Shown in pieces: positions 110-31,989 of a stretch of DNA of 38,557 bases. The position numbers and the translations under genes are program-made. Source of the DNA: an uncultured delta proteobacterium (lineage in GTDB: Bacteria > Myxococcota_A > Polyangia > Polyangiales > Polyangiaceae); contig CAITRH010000322.1 of the NCBI GenBank assembly GCA_903894755.1, positions 1-38,557 of the forward strand, in the 5' to 3' direction. The notes under the pieces are model-generated. The model searched no databases, had not been told where the DNA came from, and worked only from the letters and a program-made list of their open reading frames with translations. How positions within the stretch are numbered: the first letter of the stretch is position 1; each line of letters starts with the position of its first letter.

Positions 110-885
110 GAGCACAACGGCCTGGTCGAACTGTTCCGCGCCAATCCGTCCATTGCGCCACAGTTTATCGAGTCCCTCTTCAACATGAAGGTGCCTACCT
201 ACACCTCTGTGAGCGTCGTCGAGGCCGCTCAGGACAAGATGCTCCCCATCGAGTTCCGAGCGGACCTTGTCCTCGAGCTTCGCAATGCCGCGGGCGAGAT
301 TGTGCTCGCGGTAGTCATTGAAATCCAGCACAAGCAGGAGCCGATCAAGAAGTACACGTGGCCCGTGTACGCGGCGGTGGTGCGCGCCCAAAAGCGTTGC
401 GATGCCATGGTGCTCGTGGTGGCTCCGGATCCAAACGTGGCGCAGTGGGCATCGGAACCTATCGACCTTGGTCTCGGACTCGGAACGCTGCAGCCGCTCG
501 TGTTGGGACCTCGCGTGGTTCCCGAAGTCACCGACGCGAAGGTGGCAGAAGGCCATACGGAGCTTTCCGTGTTGTCGGGCCTTGTCCACGGCAATGGTCC
601 CAATGGGCTTGCGGTGGAGGCGATGGTGATGGAACGGATGACCGGTGAGAAAGCGACCTTTCCTCCGTTTGCGCAGGTGGTTTGCGCGAGGGGGTGCGCA
701 AGGGGAAACGCGAGGGCAAGCTCGAAGGCATACGCGAGGCGTTGGTCGAGTTCCTGAAATGCGCGGGGATCTCCACCACGAAGAAGGAACGCGCTCGCAT
801 CGAAGCGTGTACCGATGTGGCCACCCTCGACACGTGGATCAGCCGGGTCTTCGGCGCGAAGTCCGCCGCAGACGTGCTTTCCTGA
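110..885 (+). pseudogene. Decayed PD-(D/E)XK (Rpn-like) nuclease-family gene, copy 1
   Basis: The first frame reads EHNGLVELFRANPSIAPQF and then EFRADLVLEL followed by VVIEIQ, which fits the D...ExQ core of a PD-(D/E)XK fold. It continues with LVVAPDPNVAQWASEP, typical of a hypothetical-protein family that is abundant in Myxococcota. After about position 640 the frame no longer makes sense. The family's C-terminal tail resumes in another frame from about 682 (REGVRKGKREGKLEGIREAL, then ACTDVATLDTWI) and stops at 885. A segment that normally lies between the two parts is missing. The natural start is lost because a MITE end is joined at 108-109; the sister fragment at 1141 keeps ATG plus MPTLEHNGL. 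So this copy is 5'-disrupted, internally deleted and frameshifted. Function in intact relatives is unknown; a nuclease or transposase-like role is only inferred. Confidence 0.75.
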
Positions 886-9171: not shown

Positions 9172-9621
9172 CTATTCGACGGAAACAAGCTCCACGTCGA
9201 ACTTCAACGCGGCCTTGGGGGGAATGTTCGGGGGATGTCCTGCTTCCCCGTAGGCCAGGTCGAAGGGGATCACGAGTTTGCGTTTGCCCCCTTCTTTCAT
9301 ACCGACGATCCCCTGGTCCCAACCTTTGATGACCTGACCTTGGCCAAGTACGAGCTCGAAGGGTTGGCCCCGGTCGAGCGAGCTATCGAACTTTGTGCCG
9401 TTCATCAGCGTGCCTGTGTAGTGGACCTTGATTTTTTTGCCCGACTCGGCGGTCTTGCCGGTGCCTAAGACGTCATCGGTGATCTCGAGTTTGGTGGGGC
9501 CCGGCGCTTCGGGGGCGGCTTGCGAGGGTTTGAAGGTGGAAGCTGGGTCGTCGACGCGTTTGGAGCACGCGCAGGCGAGGGTGAGGGTGAGGGTGAGGGA
9601 GAGCAGGATCCAGATGCGCAT
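9172..9621 (-). CDS. FKBP-type peptidyl-prolyl isomerase lipoprotein
   Basis: The predicted product has 149 residues. The N-terminus is [20 protein letters not shown] with a lipobox-type Cys, so the protein is predicted to be anchored outside the cytoplasm. Residues ~45-149 form one FKBP domain with [52 protein letters not shown] and AYGEAG, followed by the closing FDVELVSVE strand. The Tyr, Phe, Asp, Val-Ile-Trp and Tyr residues of the proline-binding pocket are present. It catalyses cis-trans isomerisation of Xaa-Pro bonds and probably helps fold exported proteins. It is divergent from lgt, which starts 105 bases away and would lipidate this product. Confidence 0.95.
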
Positions 9622-9726
9622 GGGAGCGGTGTACTACAGATTTCACGCGCTGCTTGCGGCGCGGTCAGGTCGCGACCACGCAGGCGGACACTCCCGGGCG
9701 CTACGTGTTACACACGCGAACGCCCA

Positions 9727-10668
9727 ATGATCCCGTATATCAAAGTCCCCGACTTTCCGCTCGGACCGCTCACGCTCCACCCTTTTGGAATTCTCGTTGC
9801 GACGGGGGTTCTCGTGACGAGCTGGCTGGCGACACGCCGGGCGCGAGCACTTGGCTACGACCTCGTGCTGCTCAACTCGTTCGGGACCTGGATGCTGCTA
9901 GGCGGGTTTATCGGGGGCCACGTCTTTGACTCGCTGTTTTACCATTGGGGCGAGGTGATGCGACGTCCCCAGTCACTTCTTCTTCTGTGGGAGGGATTGA
10001 GCTCATTTGGCGGGTTCTTGGGGGCGACGCTGGGGGCTATTCTTTGGAAATACTTAGAGATCCGGCGTCATTGGGTTCGGCTCCGCAAGGCACCGATGCC
10101 CATTTTTCCCTTTGCAAACCTAGTGCACGCGGTGTTTCCGGTGGGATGGGCCTTTGGACGTGGGGGGTGTTCGGTGGTTCACGATCATCCTGGCGCGCGG
10201 GCGACTGCGGAGACGTGGCTTGCGGTGGCGTATCCTGGGTTTCAGCCCGAGGCGATCGATGGGCCTGGGACGCATCGGCAACTTGGGTTCGTGACACTTA
10301 TTGACGGTCTGTATCCGCGCTACGACTTGGGACTTCTCGAGCTGATGTTCACGGTGGTGCTGGCCATTTGTTTTGCGTTGACGTGGCGTCGGAGGCTAGC
10401 GGTGGGGACCTACCTCGTGGTGGTTTGCTTGGCGTACGCTCCGGTGAGGTTTGCGATGGACTTTTTGCGTATCCCCGAGACCCAAGGAGGAGATGCGCGG
10501 TATGCGTCGCTCACGCCCGCTCAATGGAGCTGTGTGGTGTTGGTGCTGACGGCGGCAGCGATTGGGCTCTACATGCGTTCGCTGCGCCGTCGGGGCATTG
10601 ATGTGGAAGCGCCCGTGCGGGCCACTTCAGGCAATCAGGCGGCTGTTTTGGAGCCCGGGACGGAGTGA
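9727..10668 (+). CDS. lgt: Prolipoprotein diacylglyceryl transferase
   Basis: The predicted product has 313 residues. The ATG at 9727 gives MIPYIKVPDFPLGPLTLHPF, the standard Lgt beginning with a cytoplasmic-edge segment before the first helix; the open frame continues upstream only as noise. Several membrane helices follow (VATGVLVTSWLA, MLLGGFIGGHVFDSLF, LSSFGGFLGATLGAILW, LMFTVVLAICFALTW, LVVVCLAYAPVRFAMDFLRI). The family signature appears as FPVGWAFGRGGCSVVHDHPG, a variant of the usual GRxGNFxNxE region, and the Arg is kept. The enzyme moves diacylglycerol from phosphatidylglycerol to the lipobox Cys of lipoproteins, fitting the many lipoproteins nearby. Its 3' end overlaps the convergent thioesterase gene by 34 bases. 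Confidence 0.93.
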   Translation: MIPYIKVPDFPLGPLTLHPFGILVATGVLVTSWLATRRARALGYDLVLLNSFGTWMLLGGFIGGHVFDSLFYHWGEVMRRPQSLLLLWEGLSSFGGFLGATLGAILWKYLEIRRHWVRLRKAPMPIFPFANLVHAVFPVGWAFGRGGCSVVHDHPGARATAETWLAVAYPGFQPEAIDGPGTHRQLGFVTLIDGLYPRYDLGLLELMFTVVLAICFALTWRRRLAVGTYLVVVCLAYAPVRFAMDFLRIPETQGGDARYASLTPAQWSCVVLVLTAAAIGLYMRSLRRRGIDVEAPVRATSGNQAAVLEPGTE

Positions 10669-24329: not shown

Positions 24330-24700
24330 GCGGCCAGTTTGCCAAGCTTCGCCCCGAGCTTGGCAAGCTATGCCTAAAGCTTGATAAGATCGGTCCAGGC
24401 TTGGCAAACTCGGACCTAAGCTTGGCAAACTTGGACCTAAGCTTGGCAAGCTCTCCGCAAAGTCTGGCAAACTTCGACCCGAGCTTGGCAAACTCGGACC
24501 TAAGCTTGCCAAGCTTGCCCCTCGGTTTGGCAAACTTGCCCCTAAGCTTGGCAAGCTTCGCGGAGAGCTTGGCAAGCTTAGGTCCAAGTTTGCCAAGCTC
24601 GGGTCGAAGTTTGCCAGACTTTGCGGAGAGCTTGCCAAGCTCGGGTCGAAGTTTGCCAGACTTTGCTGAGAGCTTGGCAACATGGTGGCGGAGTTTGCCA
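24330..24700. repeat. 21-bp repeat array with a 71-bp inverted repeat
   Basis: About 17 units of 21 bp, of the type AGCTTGGCAAACTTGGACCT(A), fill this region. In the first half the units point one way and in the second half the other. 24440-24510 and 24571-24641 are reverse complements over 71 bases with a single mismatch, around a 60-base centre that itself contains AAGCTTGGCAAGCTT palindromes. The array could extrude as a cruciform. Because 21 is a multiple of three, open frames cross it both ways (SLANLDL units on +, KLRSEFA units on -), but these frames also run through repeats A and B and into the neighbouring genes, so no protein is called. It separates the sigma factor gene from cheV; the cheV promoter must lie within or beside it. 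Confidence 0.93.
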
Positions 24701-24774
24701 GACTTCGACCGATGCTGCATGAGCGGGACTCAAGAAGGAAACAAGACACGGCGCCATAGCGCGAGTACGCTTGC

Positions 24775-26608: not shown

Positions 26609-28483
26609 TCACCTTCGACGGTGCGTATCCAGCGTTTCTACCACGCGAAAGCAGGTCTCTGCCGCCATAGGTCCAATGGTCAAAGCCCCCCCGTCCGTGT
26701 GCAACACCACCCAGGCGCGAGGCGCAAGAATCCCTTTGCCCAACGCGGGCTCGTAGTCGCGTATGGCCTCCCAACGGCACGCCACCCCCGCAAAGGTCAC
26801 CCCGTTGGTGTCCACTGCGAGATCGAGCGGAAGCGCCAACGCCACCGCCCTTGCCGCAAGACCAAAGAGCGCCACCAACACGCTCGAAGCCCCTATGAAC
26901 ACCAACCCCACGCGACGTTGCAAAAGCTCGTACGCGGTCCCAAGGGTCACCAACGCAAACCCGCACACTAACATCGCCACTGACGCCATCGCAAAGCGCG
27001 TCGCAGACCCAATCCGCACAAACGCTCGCGCACCGCTTTCCGGAGCCTCCGCACTCTCCCCTGGAGGTACGGCCCCATGACGCAGCGCCCGTCGAAGCAG
27101 CACCAAGAAACACCATCCCAGCACCAGCATCAGCAACGATGCCCCCAACGCTAGCCCGTCGATTGACAGCAGCGTGTTGAACGCACCATGGGACACCACT
27201 GCCAACGCGAAAAACCCCAGCACATTGGTCCGCGGCGACACCAGACTCTTGCCCAACGCATAGCCCCACAGAGACGAAAAGAACACGTGCGCCGGAACAC
27301 TCGTTAGCGCCCTTGCGGCAACCACCGACCCAGCGAGGCGGGTTCCGCTGAAGTACAACATGTTTTCGACTGCAGCAAAACCAAGAGCTGCTGCACTCGC
27401 ATACACGATCCCATCGACAGGCTCGTCGAACTCTTTTCTACGCCTTGCAAACCCCCACACGGCCAAGAACTTCGCCCCCTCCTCAACGAGGCCCACGACC
27501 AACGTGTACGACACCAACGCCGACGGCAACCCAAGGAGCTGCCCCCCCAAGGTCATCGTGGACGGGCTCGTATACGGCGATAACTCCTGAAGACTCCGCT
27601 CGATCCAAGCGGCAAACACCACACCGATCCCTCCCAACACGAAGGTGACCAGAACCAAAGACCGTGGCTCGGGCCTCGCCCGATCGAACCGCCGCACAAA
27701 CACCAGCCACCCTAGGGACACCGCAAGAGGAAGCAGGACCCCCAAACAGGCAAGTCCCCACCGAGCGGGTGCTGTCTCCACCGCTACCAAGGTCAGCGAG
27801 GGGAGGCACGGAGACTGCAGCAACCGCTTAGCGCGTGCTACCCGTGTGAACGACGCAATGTCTCGCCCAAATGGCACGGTCACCACCGGCCTCGTCAGCG
27901 CTTCCGCGGGAACCGTTGCCAGGAGGGTCCCGCCTCTCACCACCGCCACCAGCGCGTCGGGATGCGCCCTTGCGAGCTTCAACAACGGCTCGGGGGCCCG
28001 GAACACGACGCGCAGTCCTCTACCAGAACAGCAGGTCTCGAGCCTCTGCAGCGCCACGGTGCCTAGCGGAGGGGCGCTCACCAGCCGCGTGCGCATTCGA
28101 TCCCACCCGAGCATCTCGGCAAACGCTCGCTGTCCCGAAGGCTGCGGCTGCCGTAGACGCGCCCGAACCTCGCTGGCGCTCCCCTCGACCCCGTCCTCCG
28201 ACTCCACCCGATAGAGCGAGAGTCCTCCAGGCCATCGAAGCAGGTCGTCGACGGTGTCGGCCAGGTCCTCGTCTACCGTGACCCGCACGCGAGCGTTTCC
28301 TATCGCCTCGACGTCGGCAAGAATCTGCGCGGCCAAGAGACGCGAGCGCACGAGCGACACGGCGCTGGTCTCGGAAGGCACGTCGTAATCGAGACGCTTG
28401 TCGTGGGTCCCTACGATGTGACCGCTGCAGCCCGCAAGGAGCCCCACCACGACCACGAAAAGCAGAAATCGCCACCCTGCCAC
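26609..28483 (-). CDS. Lipoprotein fusing a SecD P1-like domain, PrsW protease and PH-like domain
   Basis: The predicted product has 624 residues. GTG 28483 gives VAGWRFLLFVVVVGLLAGC, a lipoprotein signal with Cys-19; the frame upstream is not protein-like. Residues ~40-240 resemble the periplasmic P1 domain of SecD: LVRSRLLAAQILADVEAIGN, LLRWPGGLSLYRVE, and VAVVRGGTLLATVPAEALTR followed by SFTRVARAKRLLQSPCLPSL, TLVAVET. In SecD this is followed by the RND membrane part. Here instead come about eight membrane segments with PrsW motifs: VEEGAKF (334-335 EE), GFAAVENMLYF (E373), PAHVFFS (H399) and SHGAFN (H432). Residues ~550-620 (DLAVDTNGVTFAGVACRWEA) look like a bacterial PH-like domain. PrsW enzymes cut membrane proteins such as anti-sigma factors. 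The SecD link is inferred from pattern. Confidence 0.8.
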   Translation of the reverse strand: MAGWRFLLFVVVVGLLAGCSGHIVGTHDKRLDYDVPSETSAVSLVRSRLLAAQILADVEAIGNARVRVTVDEDLADTVDDLLRWPGGLSLYRVESEDGVEGSASEVRARLRQPQPSGQRAFAEMLGWDRMRTRLVSAPPLGTVALQRLETCCSGRGLRVVFRAPEPLLKLARAHPDALVAVVRGGTLLATVPAEALTRPVVTVPFGRDIASFTRVARAKRLLQSPCLPSLTLVAVETAPARWGLACLGVLLPLAVSLGWLVFVRRFDRARPEPRSLVLVTFVLGGIGVVFAAWIERSLQELSPYTSPSTMTLGGQLLGLPSALVSYTLVVGLVEEGAKFLAVWGFARRRKEFDEPVDGIVYASAAALGFAAVENMLYFSGTRLAGSVVAARALTSVPAHVFFSSLWGYALGKSLVSPRTNVLGFFALAVVSHGAFNTLLSIDGLALGASLLMLVLGWCFLVLLRRALRHGAVPPGESAEAPESGARAFVRIGSATRFAMASVAMLVCGFALVTLGTAYELLQRRVGLVFIGASSVLVALFGLAARAVALALPLDLAVDTNGVTFAGVACRWEAIRDYEPALGKGILAPRAWVVLHTDGGALTIGPMAAETCFRVVETLDTHRRR

Positions 28484-29661: not shown

Positions 29662-29854
29662 TAAACCAAACCTACTTTGAGAACCGCAACTTCGTCGCCG
29701 GCGACCCCGAAGACCTCACCCCCCAGCGATTTCACTCTCTTACAACTTCCCCCTCCCCATCGATGGGGAGGGGGACGCGGTGGAAGTGCCGCGTCGCTGG
29801 GGGGTGAGGTCTGCGCGAGCGGAACCCTGCGGTTTTTAAAAAGCGTTTGGTTTA
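29662..29854. mobile_element. Full-length family A MITE (193 bp)
   Basis: Left end TAAACCAAACCTACTTTGAG then AACCGCAAC; right end CTGCGGTTTTTAAAAAGCGT then TTGGTTTA. TA lies at 29662-29663 and 29853-29854. Inner inverted repeats GACCCCGAAGACCTCACCCC and GGGGGGTGAGGTCTGCG surround CCCTCCCCATCGATGGGGAG, the same centre as the 25711 copy. No transposase frame is inside. It lies 17 bases after the moxR stop and reaches into the start of the next reading frame. Confidence 0.88.
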
Positions 29855-31989
29855 GCGCCGCGTTCGCCGGGATCGTCGCGGTCTCCGCGGTCCAAGCCAA
29901 GTCGGTCAGTCCCGTCAGCCCCGCCAGCCCCGTCACCCTGGCGGCTGCAGCCATCCTTGGCGCCGACACCCCATCGAGCGGCTGGATCGAATTCGTCGCC
30001 CGCATCGAGAGCTCCAGCCCCACGGCGCAAAAAGGACTCGTCGAGGTGCGTCCCACGTACAGCGTCCACGGCTCCCGAGCCCTTCCACTTGCCCAGGCAC
30101 CGTTCCATATCCCCCCAGGAAAAATCGGAGTCGTACGTATCCCAGTCCGCGCGCCCGGCTCCGGCGGCTCGGTGACCCTCCATGTCGTCGCCGACACAGG
30201 CGAAGCGCTCGCCTCCAGGGAGGTCGCCACTGGAGGCGTCCACGGGCCTCTTCTCGTCGACCTCTCCAGCCCATCGCGGATTGCGATCCCGCTCCGCAAG
30301 TGGCCCGTGTCGCTAGCCTGGAGTCCCAACGCTTACGGGACCCCGACCAGCGAGGTTGGTGTCGGCTCGCCAGGAGTCGATCGCGCCACGGGCGAGCCGA
30401 TTCTTCCCGAGCGGGCTGCGGGCTACTCGGCTGCGTCGGTGGTGCTCGTGTCGTCGGCGGTGCTCGCAAGGCTCGAGGCGTCGCAGCTCGATCCGCTCGT
30501 GGGATGGGTGATCACTGGAGGGGTTTTGGCGGTAGTCCCGACCCGTCCCGAGGACCTCCGTCAGGGCGTGCTGCCGTCTCTCGTGAACGGCACGGTAAGC
30601 GTGACCGAGCCTTCGTCGAGTCTGTTGAAGCTCCCCTCGATGGGACGTCCTGCGGTGTCGCCGTCCCCCTTCGAGCCCGAGCCTGAACCCGACGACCCGA
30701 CGCCCGATGCGGTGCCTCCCACACCTCCCACACATGACGCGGGGGCGACTCCGATCCAGTGGATTCCCACGAGGACGACGCCGGCTCCCGTCGGACCGCG
30801 TGTTGGACCAGGCACTGCGGTCAAGTCGAAGCTAGTCGGCTACAAGGGAGGAGCGCTGGTCTCGACGGACTTCGGTGCGATGGCTCCACACGGTCTAGGT
30901 GAGGTGCACCTTCTCGCGTTCGACCCGACGCAAGCGCCCGGAGTGGACGACCCCTGGGTACACGCCCGGATGGTCGAACTGCTCACACGCGCCTGGGACC
31001 GTCGCGCCACCACGGTGTTTGGCCAAGGGCAACAGGACAAGCGCGGAGCGAACCTCAACGACGTCCGTCGCGCCCTCGATCCCAACGAGAGCTTCCGCCC
31101 CGCGCTAGGCATCGCGGCCATTCTGCTGATCATTTATTCCATCGTGGCGGGGCCCGTGACGTTCCTGCGGGCCACGCGGAGGGGACGTCCCCTGGAGCCG
31201 CTGCTCTGGGCTCCACTCTGGAGCGCCGCTGCGTTCTCGCTCATCGTGTTCGTAGGCTTTGCCGGGCGAGGGTGGCGTGGACGATCACGTCATCTTGCGT
31301 TGGTCGAGACCAGCTCGAACGCCGTCCGCGGGACAATCCGTCGTTACCGCGCGTTCTTCTCCAGCCAGACCCGAGACCTCGCCATACGCGCCACGGACCG
31401 CGCCTGCGTGCTCGACGTGATCGAGACAGGACGCGAACAAGGCGTCCCGGTACTTCGACTGGACAAGAACGGACTTTCCCTGGGCAACCTCAAGGCGCTC
31501 CCGTGGCAGACGGTCATCGTACAAGAGGAGGGGCTCGTAGACTTCGGCGCAGGCATCACGCTGACCACGCGACCCGATCATTCCGTCGAGGTGACCAACC
31601 ACACGGGACGCAATCTCAAGGACCTTCTCATCTACGCACCGAGCTTCGGGACCACGCTCGTAAGGAGTCTGATCGAGGGGGCCTCGGTGGCATCGTCGGA
31701 CGGGCAGTTGCTACAGGCCTGGACTGCCCGAGCCTCCTCGGTGGCGGGGCGACGCACGGTGCATCCATTTGGGTCGAACCTTTTCGACACGGTGCCCGGA
31801 CGGAGTGACGAGCTTCGGCAAGCGTGGCTTGCGCTCTCTTCGGCGGCGGGGGATGCGGTCGACTGGTGGCCTGACGAGTTTCCGGTGGTCCTTGGCGAGG
31901 TGGTGGGAGGCGAGAACGTGGCAGAGGACTCGGGACTCAGAATGGAGAGCGACCGTCTATTTTTCCGTGTCGTTGGAGCGACCCCATGA
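29677..31989 (+). CDS. Large exported/membrane protein of unknown function between MoxR and ABC genes
   Basis: The frame gives up to 770 residues from TTG 29677. The first ~59 codons lie inside the MITE. The next part, LRFLKSVWFSAAFAGIVAVS then AVQA-KS, looks like a signal peptide whose positive head is coded by the MITE right end; the start could then be an unusual CTG at 29827, or the true start has been lost. The exported part has a beta-sandwich-like segment (SGWIEFVARIESSSPTAQKG) and a region SVVLVSSAVLARLEASQLDP then VGWVITGGVLAVVP, like the glutamine-amidotransferase-like domains of related membrane proteins. Near residues 480-530 there are two membrane segments (LGIAAILLIIYSIVAGPVTF and LWSAAAFSLIVFVGFAGRGW). 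The stop overlaps the ABC ATPase start. Similar proteins occur beside GldA/GldG-like or NatA-like exporters; function unknown. Confidence 0.65.
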   Translation: MRTATSSPATPKTSPPSDFTLLQLPPPHRWGGGRGGSAASLGGEVCASGTLRFLKSVWFSAAFAGIVAVSAVQAKSVSPVSPASPVTLAAAAILGADTPSSGWIEFVARIESSSPTAQKGLVEVRPTYSVHGSRALPLAQAPFHIPPGKIGVVRIPVRAPGSGGSVTLHVVADTGEALASREVATGGVHGPLLVDLSSPSRIAIPLRKWPVSLAWSPNAYGTPTSEVGVGSPGVDRATGEPILPERAAGYSAASVVLVSSAVLARLEASQLDPLVGWVITGGVLAVVPTRPEDLRQGVLPSLVNGTVSVTEPSSSLLKLPSMGRPAVSPSPFEPEPEPDDPTPDAVPPTPPTHDAGATPIQWIPTRTTPAPVGPRVGPGTAVKSKLVGYKGGALVSTDFGAMAPHGLGEVHLLAFDPTQAPGVDDPWVHARMVELLTRAWDRRATTVFGQGQQDKRGANLNDVRRALDPNESFRPALGIAAILLIIYSIVAGPVTFLRATRRGRPLEPLLWAPLWSAAAFSLIVFVGFAGRGWRGRSRHLALVETSSNAVRGTIRRYRAFFSSQTRDLAIRATDRACVLDVIETGREQGVPVLRLDKNGLSLGNLKALPWQTVIVQEEGLVDFGAGITLTTRPDHSVEVTNHTGRNLKDLLIYAPSFGTTLVRSLIEGASVASSDGQLLQAWTARASSVAGRRTVHPFGSNLFDTVPGRSDELRQAWLALSSAAGDAVDWWPDEFPVVLGEVVGGENVAEDSGLRMESDRLFFRVVGATP

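Follow-up and report, generated by a model that had tools for sequence, protein, structure and literature searches.

What might an intramembrane protease do with a large, lipid-anchored domain outside the membrane that resembles part of SecD? To our knowledge, the mode by which PrsW-type proteases sense their signals is poorly understood, and the question is raised by a gene on a contig of an uncultured delta proteobacterium of the Polyangiaceae (CAITRH010000322.1, assembly GCA_903894755.1), the whole 38,557 nucleotides of which are referred to here as the window. A reading of the letters and open reading frames made beforehand (the sequence-only reading) had described the product as a lipoprotein in which a SecD P1-like domain, a PrsW protease and a PH-like domain follow one another. 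Both the coordinates and the strand given there were right when frame 28483..26609 was read again, and the order of the domains finds support in predicted structures, in their comparison with known ones and in approximately 20 relatives with the same order (Table 1).

Table 1. Features of the protease gene and its product, with the FKBP-type gene of the window. Positions are those of the window.
Feature	Residues	Position	Strand	Basis or remark
Whole gene: lipoprotein signal, SecD P1-like ectodomain, PrsW core, TM hairpin and PH-like domain	624 aa	26609..28483	-	GTG start at 28483; stop at 26609, included in the coordinates
Signal peptide	1-18	28430-28483	-	Sequence
Lipobox at signal peptide end	L16-A17-G18-C19	28427..28438	-	Sequence; Cys kept in orthologs
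Extracytoplasmic domain (ectodomain)	20-245 (~225 residues)	27749..28426	-	AF2 model, Foldseek, VIA-align
Part of ectodomain aligned with SecD P1	27-238	27770-28405	-	Structural comparison
First core TM (predicted), immediately N-terminal to the PF13367 region	about 246-265			Hydropathy, PrsW anatomy
PrsW protease core	272-456	27116..27670	-	PF13367 match
EExxK motif	E334, E335, K338	27470..27484	-	Invariant in 22 sequences
EN motif	E373, N374	27362..27367	-	Invariant in 22 sequences
His within PAHxFF	H399	27287..27289	-	Invariant in 22 sequences
HxxxD/N motif	H432, N436	27176..27190	-	Family alignment; D in nearly all relatives
C-terminal beta strand, TM hairpin and PH-like domain, predicted cytoplasmic	487-623	26615..27025	-	AF2, VIA-align, hydropathy
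FKBP-type PPIase lipoprotein gene		9175..9621	-	17 kb from protease gene

The window protein is confirmed as a predicted PrsW-type intramembrane glutamic protease. Its match to PF13367 covers profile positions 1-189 of 196 (E 1.4e-37; 129.6 bits against a cut-off of 23.5) and the same profile matches all 22 of its relatives; no family besides PrsW was found in the Pfam search of the window protein, the Myxosortase/CPBP profile PF02517 (Rce1-like CPBP) giving no match. E334, E335, K338, E373, N374, H399 and H432 are invariant across the 22 aligned sequences, which upholds the PrsW motifs named in the sequence-only reading (EEGAK at 334-338, EN, H399 and H432); the last of them, however, departs from the family, as the window protein reads HGAFN, with N436, where HxxxD is nearly invariant. 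A full-length PF13367 match and the EExxK, EN, H and HxxxD/N motifs are common to this protein and the PrsW of B. subtilis, but the score against the NCBIfam PrsW equivalog NF033739 is far under the cut-off (83.6 against 225 bits), thus placing the protein in the PrsW family yet outside the group of orthologs of the RsiW-cleaving B. subtilis enzyme.

The PrsW of B. subtilis is not known to have a large ectodomain. In the window protein a LAG-C19 lipobox comes after a hydrophobic stretch, and in the alignment of relatives those orthologs that extend this far have the Cys as well; the signal peptide, lipobox and invariant Cys are those of a bacterial lipoprotein, as had been read from the sequence. 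The domain behind this anchor was modelled using AlphaFold2 without templates, from an alignment of 18 ectodomains (pLDDT 91.7, pTM 0.85). Ranks 1-9 of a Foldseek search of the model against the PDB are all SecDF of Thermus thermophilus (E 3.2e-9 to 5.3e-5; TM-scores 0.39-0.45), after which the list jumps to unrelated proteins from E 4.5e-3. With VIA-align, rank 1 is an isolated SecD P1, 3aqo_C (Z 11.4, 185 residues aligned, rmsd 5.8), the alignment taking in both subdomains, base and head; unrelated ferredoxin-like proteins reach a Z of at most 8.8 over ~75 residues, matching the base alone. The high rmsd would be consistent with base and head standing at an angle to each other that differs from that in SecD. 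The structural check proposed along with the sequence-only reading therefore came out in its favour, SecDF and not some fold unrelated to SecD P1 heading the list.

The predicted fold of the ectodomain thus has both the base and the head of the periplasmic P1 domain of SecD (T. thermophilus structures 3AQO, 3AQP, 5XAP and 5YHF) and, like it, would lie just outside the membrane, tethered at both ends. The remainder of SecD is another matter; the RND transmembrane domain that follows P1 in SecDF is absent, the PrsW core coming directly after the P1-like part in its place, as had been suggested, and a lipid anchor replaces the N-terminal TM1.

Homology of the ectodomain with SecD P1 is likely but not proven. 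Identity in the structural alignment is ~14%, at which the peptide pocket may not be kept; PF22599 (SecDF_P1_head) gave no match in the window protein at E up to 10, nor in the 22 relatives at E up to 1, and an hmmsearch against PDB sequences yielded no proof of kinship. Comparisons using hhalign gave P of 0.23-0.26 against 18 Myxococcota SecD proteins and 0.09-0.21 against Myxococcota plus diverse SecD, neither of which is significant (0.09-0.29 overall), and in a column-shuffle control 3 of 200 shuffles scored at least as high as the real alignment. The best profile alignment always finishes with the family LLxSPxLP (LLQSPCLP) on the SecD LRSGALP, just before the membrane, and a relaxed alignment is colinear from the base onwards. 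The order of SecD phrases noticed in the sequence-only reading thus sits in the right register, but its sequence score is not significant. It could be argued that the fold is convergent, i.e., that two alpha/beta subdomains look like P1 while sharing neither ancestry nor function with it, and the non-significant profile-profile signal and a base of the common ferredoxin-like fold would agree with this. However, we regard convergence as highly improbable: SecDF alone matches the two subdomains together in this order and linkage, the alignment that scores best by sequence lies at the corresponding position of SecD, and a related genome encodes a P1 head in a protein other than SecD. The protein in question (locus L204, 1135-2214, minus strand; 360 aa) begins with what appear to be several TM segments and continues with a P1 head (PF22599, E 1.2e-16), with neither an RND domain nor a PrsW core, and reuse of the P1 module is therefore not unique to the PrsW family. 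Two further sets of matches were discarded: six-frame matches to the ectodomain profile at two SecD loci (L126 and L134), which are small spurious frames and not SecD, and two weak PF22599 matches in relatives (G003:C23 and G002:C22), in frames which appear unrelated to SecD.

In the AlphaFold2 model of the C-terminal part (pLDDT 89.5) a first strand leads into a TM hairpin, after which come six strands and a helix. Nearly all of its top 50 VIA-align matches are PTB, PH or FERM-F3 domains (Z 9.3-10.6), the best being 4dx9_K (Z 10.6, 79 aligned, rmsd 1.8), whilst Foldseek matches are weak (E 0.1) and the bacterial PH families of Pfam match neither the window protein nor the 22 relatives. In the predicted model the domain is PH/PTB/FERM-F3-like by fold, with the hairpin between strands 1 and 2, in keeping with the beta-rich, PH-like domain read from the sequence, and the RRALRH segment before it suggests that it lies on the cytoplasmic side. 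From hydropathy and the anatomy of the PrsW family we infer that the lipoprotein N-terminus is outside and that seven core TMs and two more follow; by the positive-inside rule the arginine-rich segments RRFDRARPEPR and RRALRH would be compatible with cytoplasmic loops.

Relatives were sought in 39 related genomes, in ~85,000 species genomes (using PrsW-core peptides) and in a class-wide sample. The count of same-order homologues in Myxococcota, which had been proposed as a further check, came to ~20 distinct proteins, some cut by contig ends; all are from Myxococcota (Polyangiaceae), the named ones including Labilithrix and Polyangiaceae bins. A convincing ectodomain match was found in 25 genomes of the class sample, all in the window's own family, and three matches outside that family have E of 1e-3 to 6e-3. 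Throughout the genomes searched the ectodomain was seen only as a PrsW fusion. Nearly all more distant PrsW relatives have at most a few dozen residues ahead of the core, the longest N-terminal extension among them, the window's own gene aside, being 140 residues. The PrsW core is the best conserved part among the relatives, at a mean pairwise identity of 60%, as against 33% for the ectodomain and 38% for the C-terminal part, and a middle segment of the ectodomain is absent in some orthologs (L002).

PrsW proteins fused to signalling domains, namely PilZ, cyclic-nucleotide-binding, FHA and Zn-ribbon, are already known (PMC3482391), and like them the window protein joins PrsW to an added regulatory domain; in those fusions, however, the added domains are intracellular, whereas the domain described here is extracytoplasmic and SecD P1-like in fold. 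We know of no description of such a domain on PrsW, and none was found in the literature searched, which took in few subscription journals.

In SecD, the head of P1 contains a pocket that binds substrate, and it moves rigidly (PMC11470409). By analogy, we propose that the P1-like domain captures an exported polypeptide and gates cleavage by PrsW, a reading that we consider a serious possibility, though we would stop short of calling it probable. The protein would be anchored on the outer side of the inner membrane through a lipid on Cys19, with its P1-like domain tethered N-terminally by that lipid and C-terminally by the first PrsW TM helix, a double tether resembling that of SecD P1 between TM1 and TM2. 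The head would bind exposed polypeptide, whether of newly exported or misfolded proteins or of partly trimmed membrane proteins, and its hinge movement against the base would let the substrate into the membrane site of PrsW or activate that site, which would then cut a membrane-anchored substrate, for example an anti-sigma factor. The cytoplasmic PH-like domain may add regulation, dimerisation, or docking to lipid or protein. In favour of capture and gating we count the invariant catalytic motifs, the fold match over both base and head, the conservation of the order in ~20 genomes, the cleavage of RsiW by the B. subtilis PrsW and a recurrent PPIase lipoprotein neighbour. Against it we count the low identity to SecD, the fast divergence of the ectodomain relative to the core and the absence of its middle segment in some orthologs, together with the failure to recognise an anti-sigma gene alongside and the nature of the neighbour evidence, which is convergent synteny.

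The sequence-only reading had suggested that the protein could monitor secretion or unfolded cargo. A form of this that is narrower than capture and gating would be a dedicated secretion-stress sensor in which jammed or unfolded cargo triggers cleavage of one anti-sigma factor and thereby a transcriptional response. Although there is precedent in the PrsW of B. subtilis, a site-1 protease cutting the anti-sigma factor RsiW (PMC4602095), and SecD P1 does bind polypeptide (PMC11470409), neither in the window nor in the inspected ortholog loci could a sigma/anti-sigma pair be recognised beside the protease gene, and other PrsW proteins of the genome could fill that role; we consider such a dedicated sensor rather unlikely.

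An FKBP-type PPIase lipoprotein gene lies convergent to, and directly downstream of, the protease gene in 13 of the 22 ortholog loci, and beyond it most loci reaching far enough have an unnamed membrane protein and then an L,D-transpeptidase (L032, L033, L036, L037, L038, L046 and others); the unnamed protein has a GPxRFW motif and no Pfam match. In three Labilithrix-type loci (L040, L042 and L043) the whole FKBP block has the opposite orientation. Upstream, where a gene could be assigned, a PP2C phosphatase or pheA is found, the divergent gene in L032 and L033 being a TM-anchored PP2C phosphatase after an assignment as FtsY was rejected. In the window the neighbours are trmH-like and moxR, the latter of which was not found near the orthologs in the loci inspected, and the FKBP lipoprotein gene is remote and divergent from lgt, encoding prolipoprotein diacylglyceryl transferase (9175-10665). 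The window also holds a 770-aa protein without a Pfam match between moxR and ABC transporter genes (29677-31989) and, between sigma-70 and CheW/response-regulator genes, degenerate 21/42/63-bp tandem repeats (24336-24705) which produce long repetitive frames on both strands.

The FKBP lipoprotein is a possible, if weakly indicated, functional partner of the protease, the genes being convergent and syntenic and not in an operon. Alternatively, the P1-like domain might not sense at all but instead place the protease at the Sec translocon or at the PPIase, with PrsW there performing membrane-protein quality control. At the translocon, the P1 head of SecD is in contact with the PPIase PpiD (PMC11470409), and the FKBP gene recurs beside the protease; as the latter association is one of synteny, a docking role seems to us improbable. 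The P1-like domain might also deliver exported proteins to PrsW to be processed at the C-terminus or in the TM, a maturation or sorting role modelled on the myxosortase MrtX and its MYXO-CTERM proteins. MrtX is, like the window protein, a glutamic intramembrane protease from myxobacteria, and it acts on exported proteins, but it belongs to the CPBP family, which is distantly related to PrsW (PMC11980579; PMC3482391). Whilst the window's genome has 13 MYXO-CTERM matches above the cut-off, it also has four Rce1-like CPBP proteins, and MrtX orthologs are reported phylum-wide (PMC11980579) whereas the P1-PrsW family is patchy, so that a peptidase of this kind appears quite improbable.

Capture and gating remains the reading that we prefer, and the P1-like domain on a predicted protease points to a possible direct link between protein export and proteolysis. 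More tentatively, the polypeptide-binding domain of SecD may have been taken into an intramembrane protease, creating an export-coupled switch in one protein with no separate sensor. In this protease family a SecD P1-like module occurs apart from the RND motor and, as the input domain would be soluble and recognisably related to one whose polypeptide pocket and hinge are known, the trigger of an intramembrane glutamic protease becomes directly testable. If the proposal is true, the switch would detect polypeptide as it leaves the translocon or stalls there, and would respond by cleaving a membrane protein.
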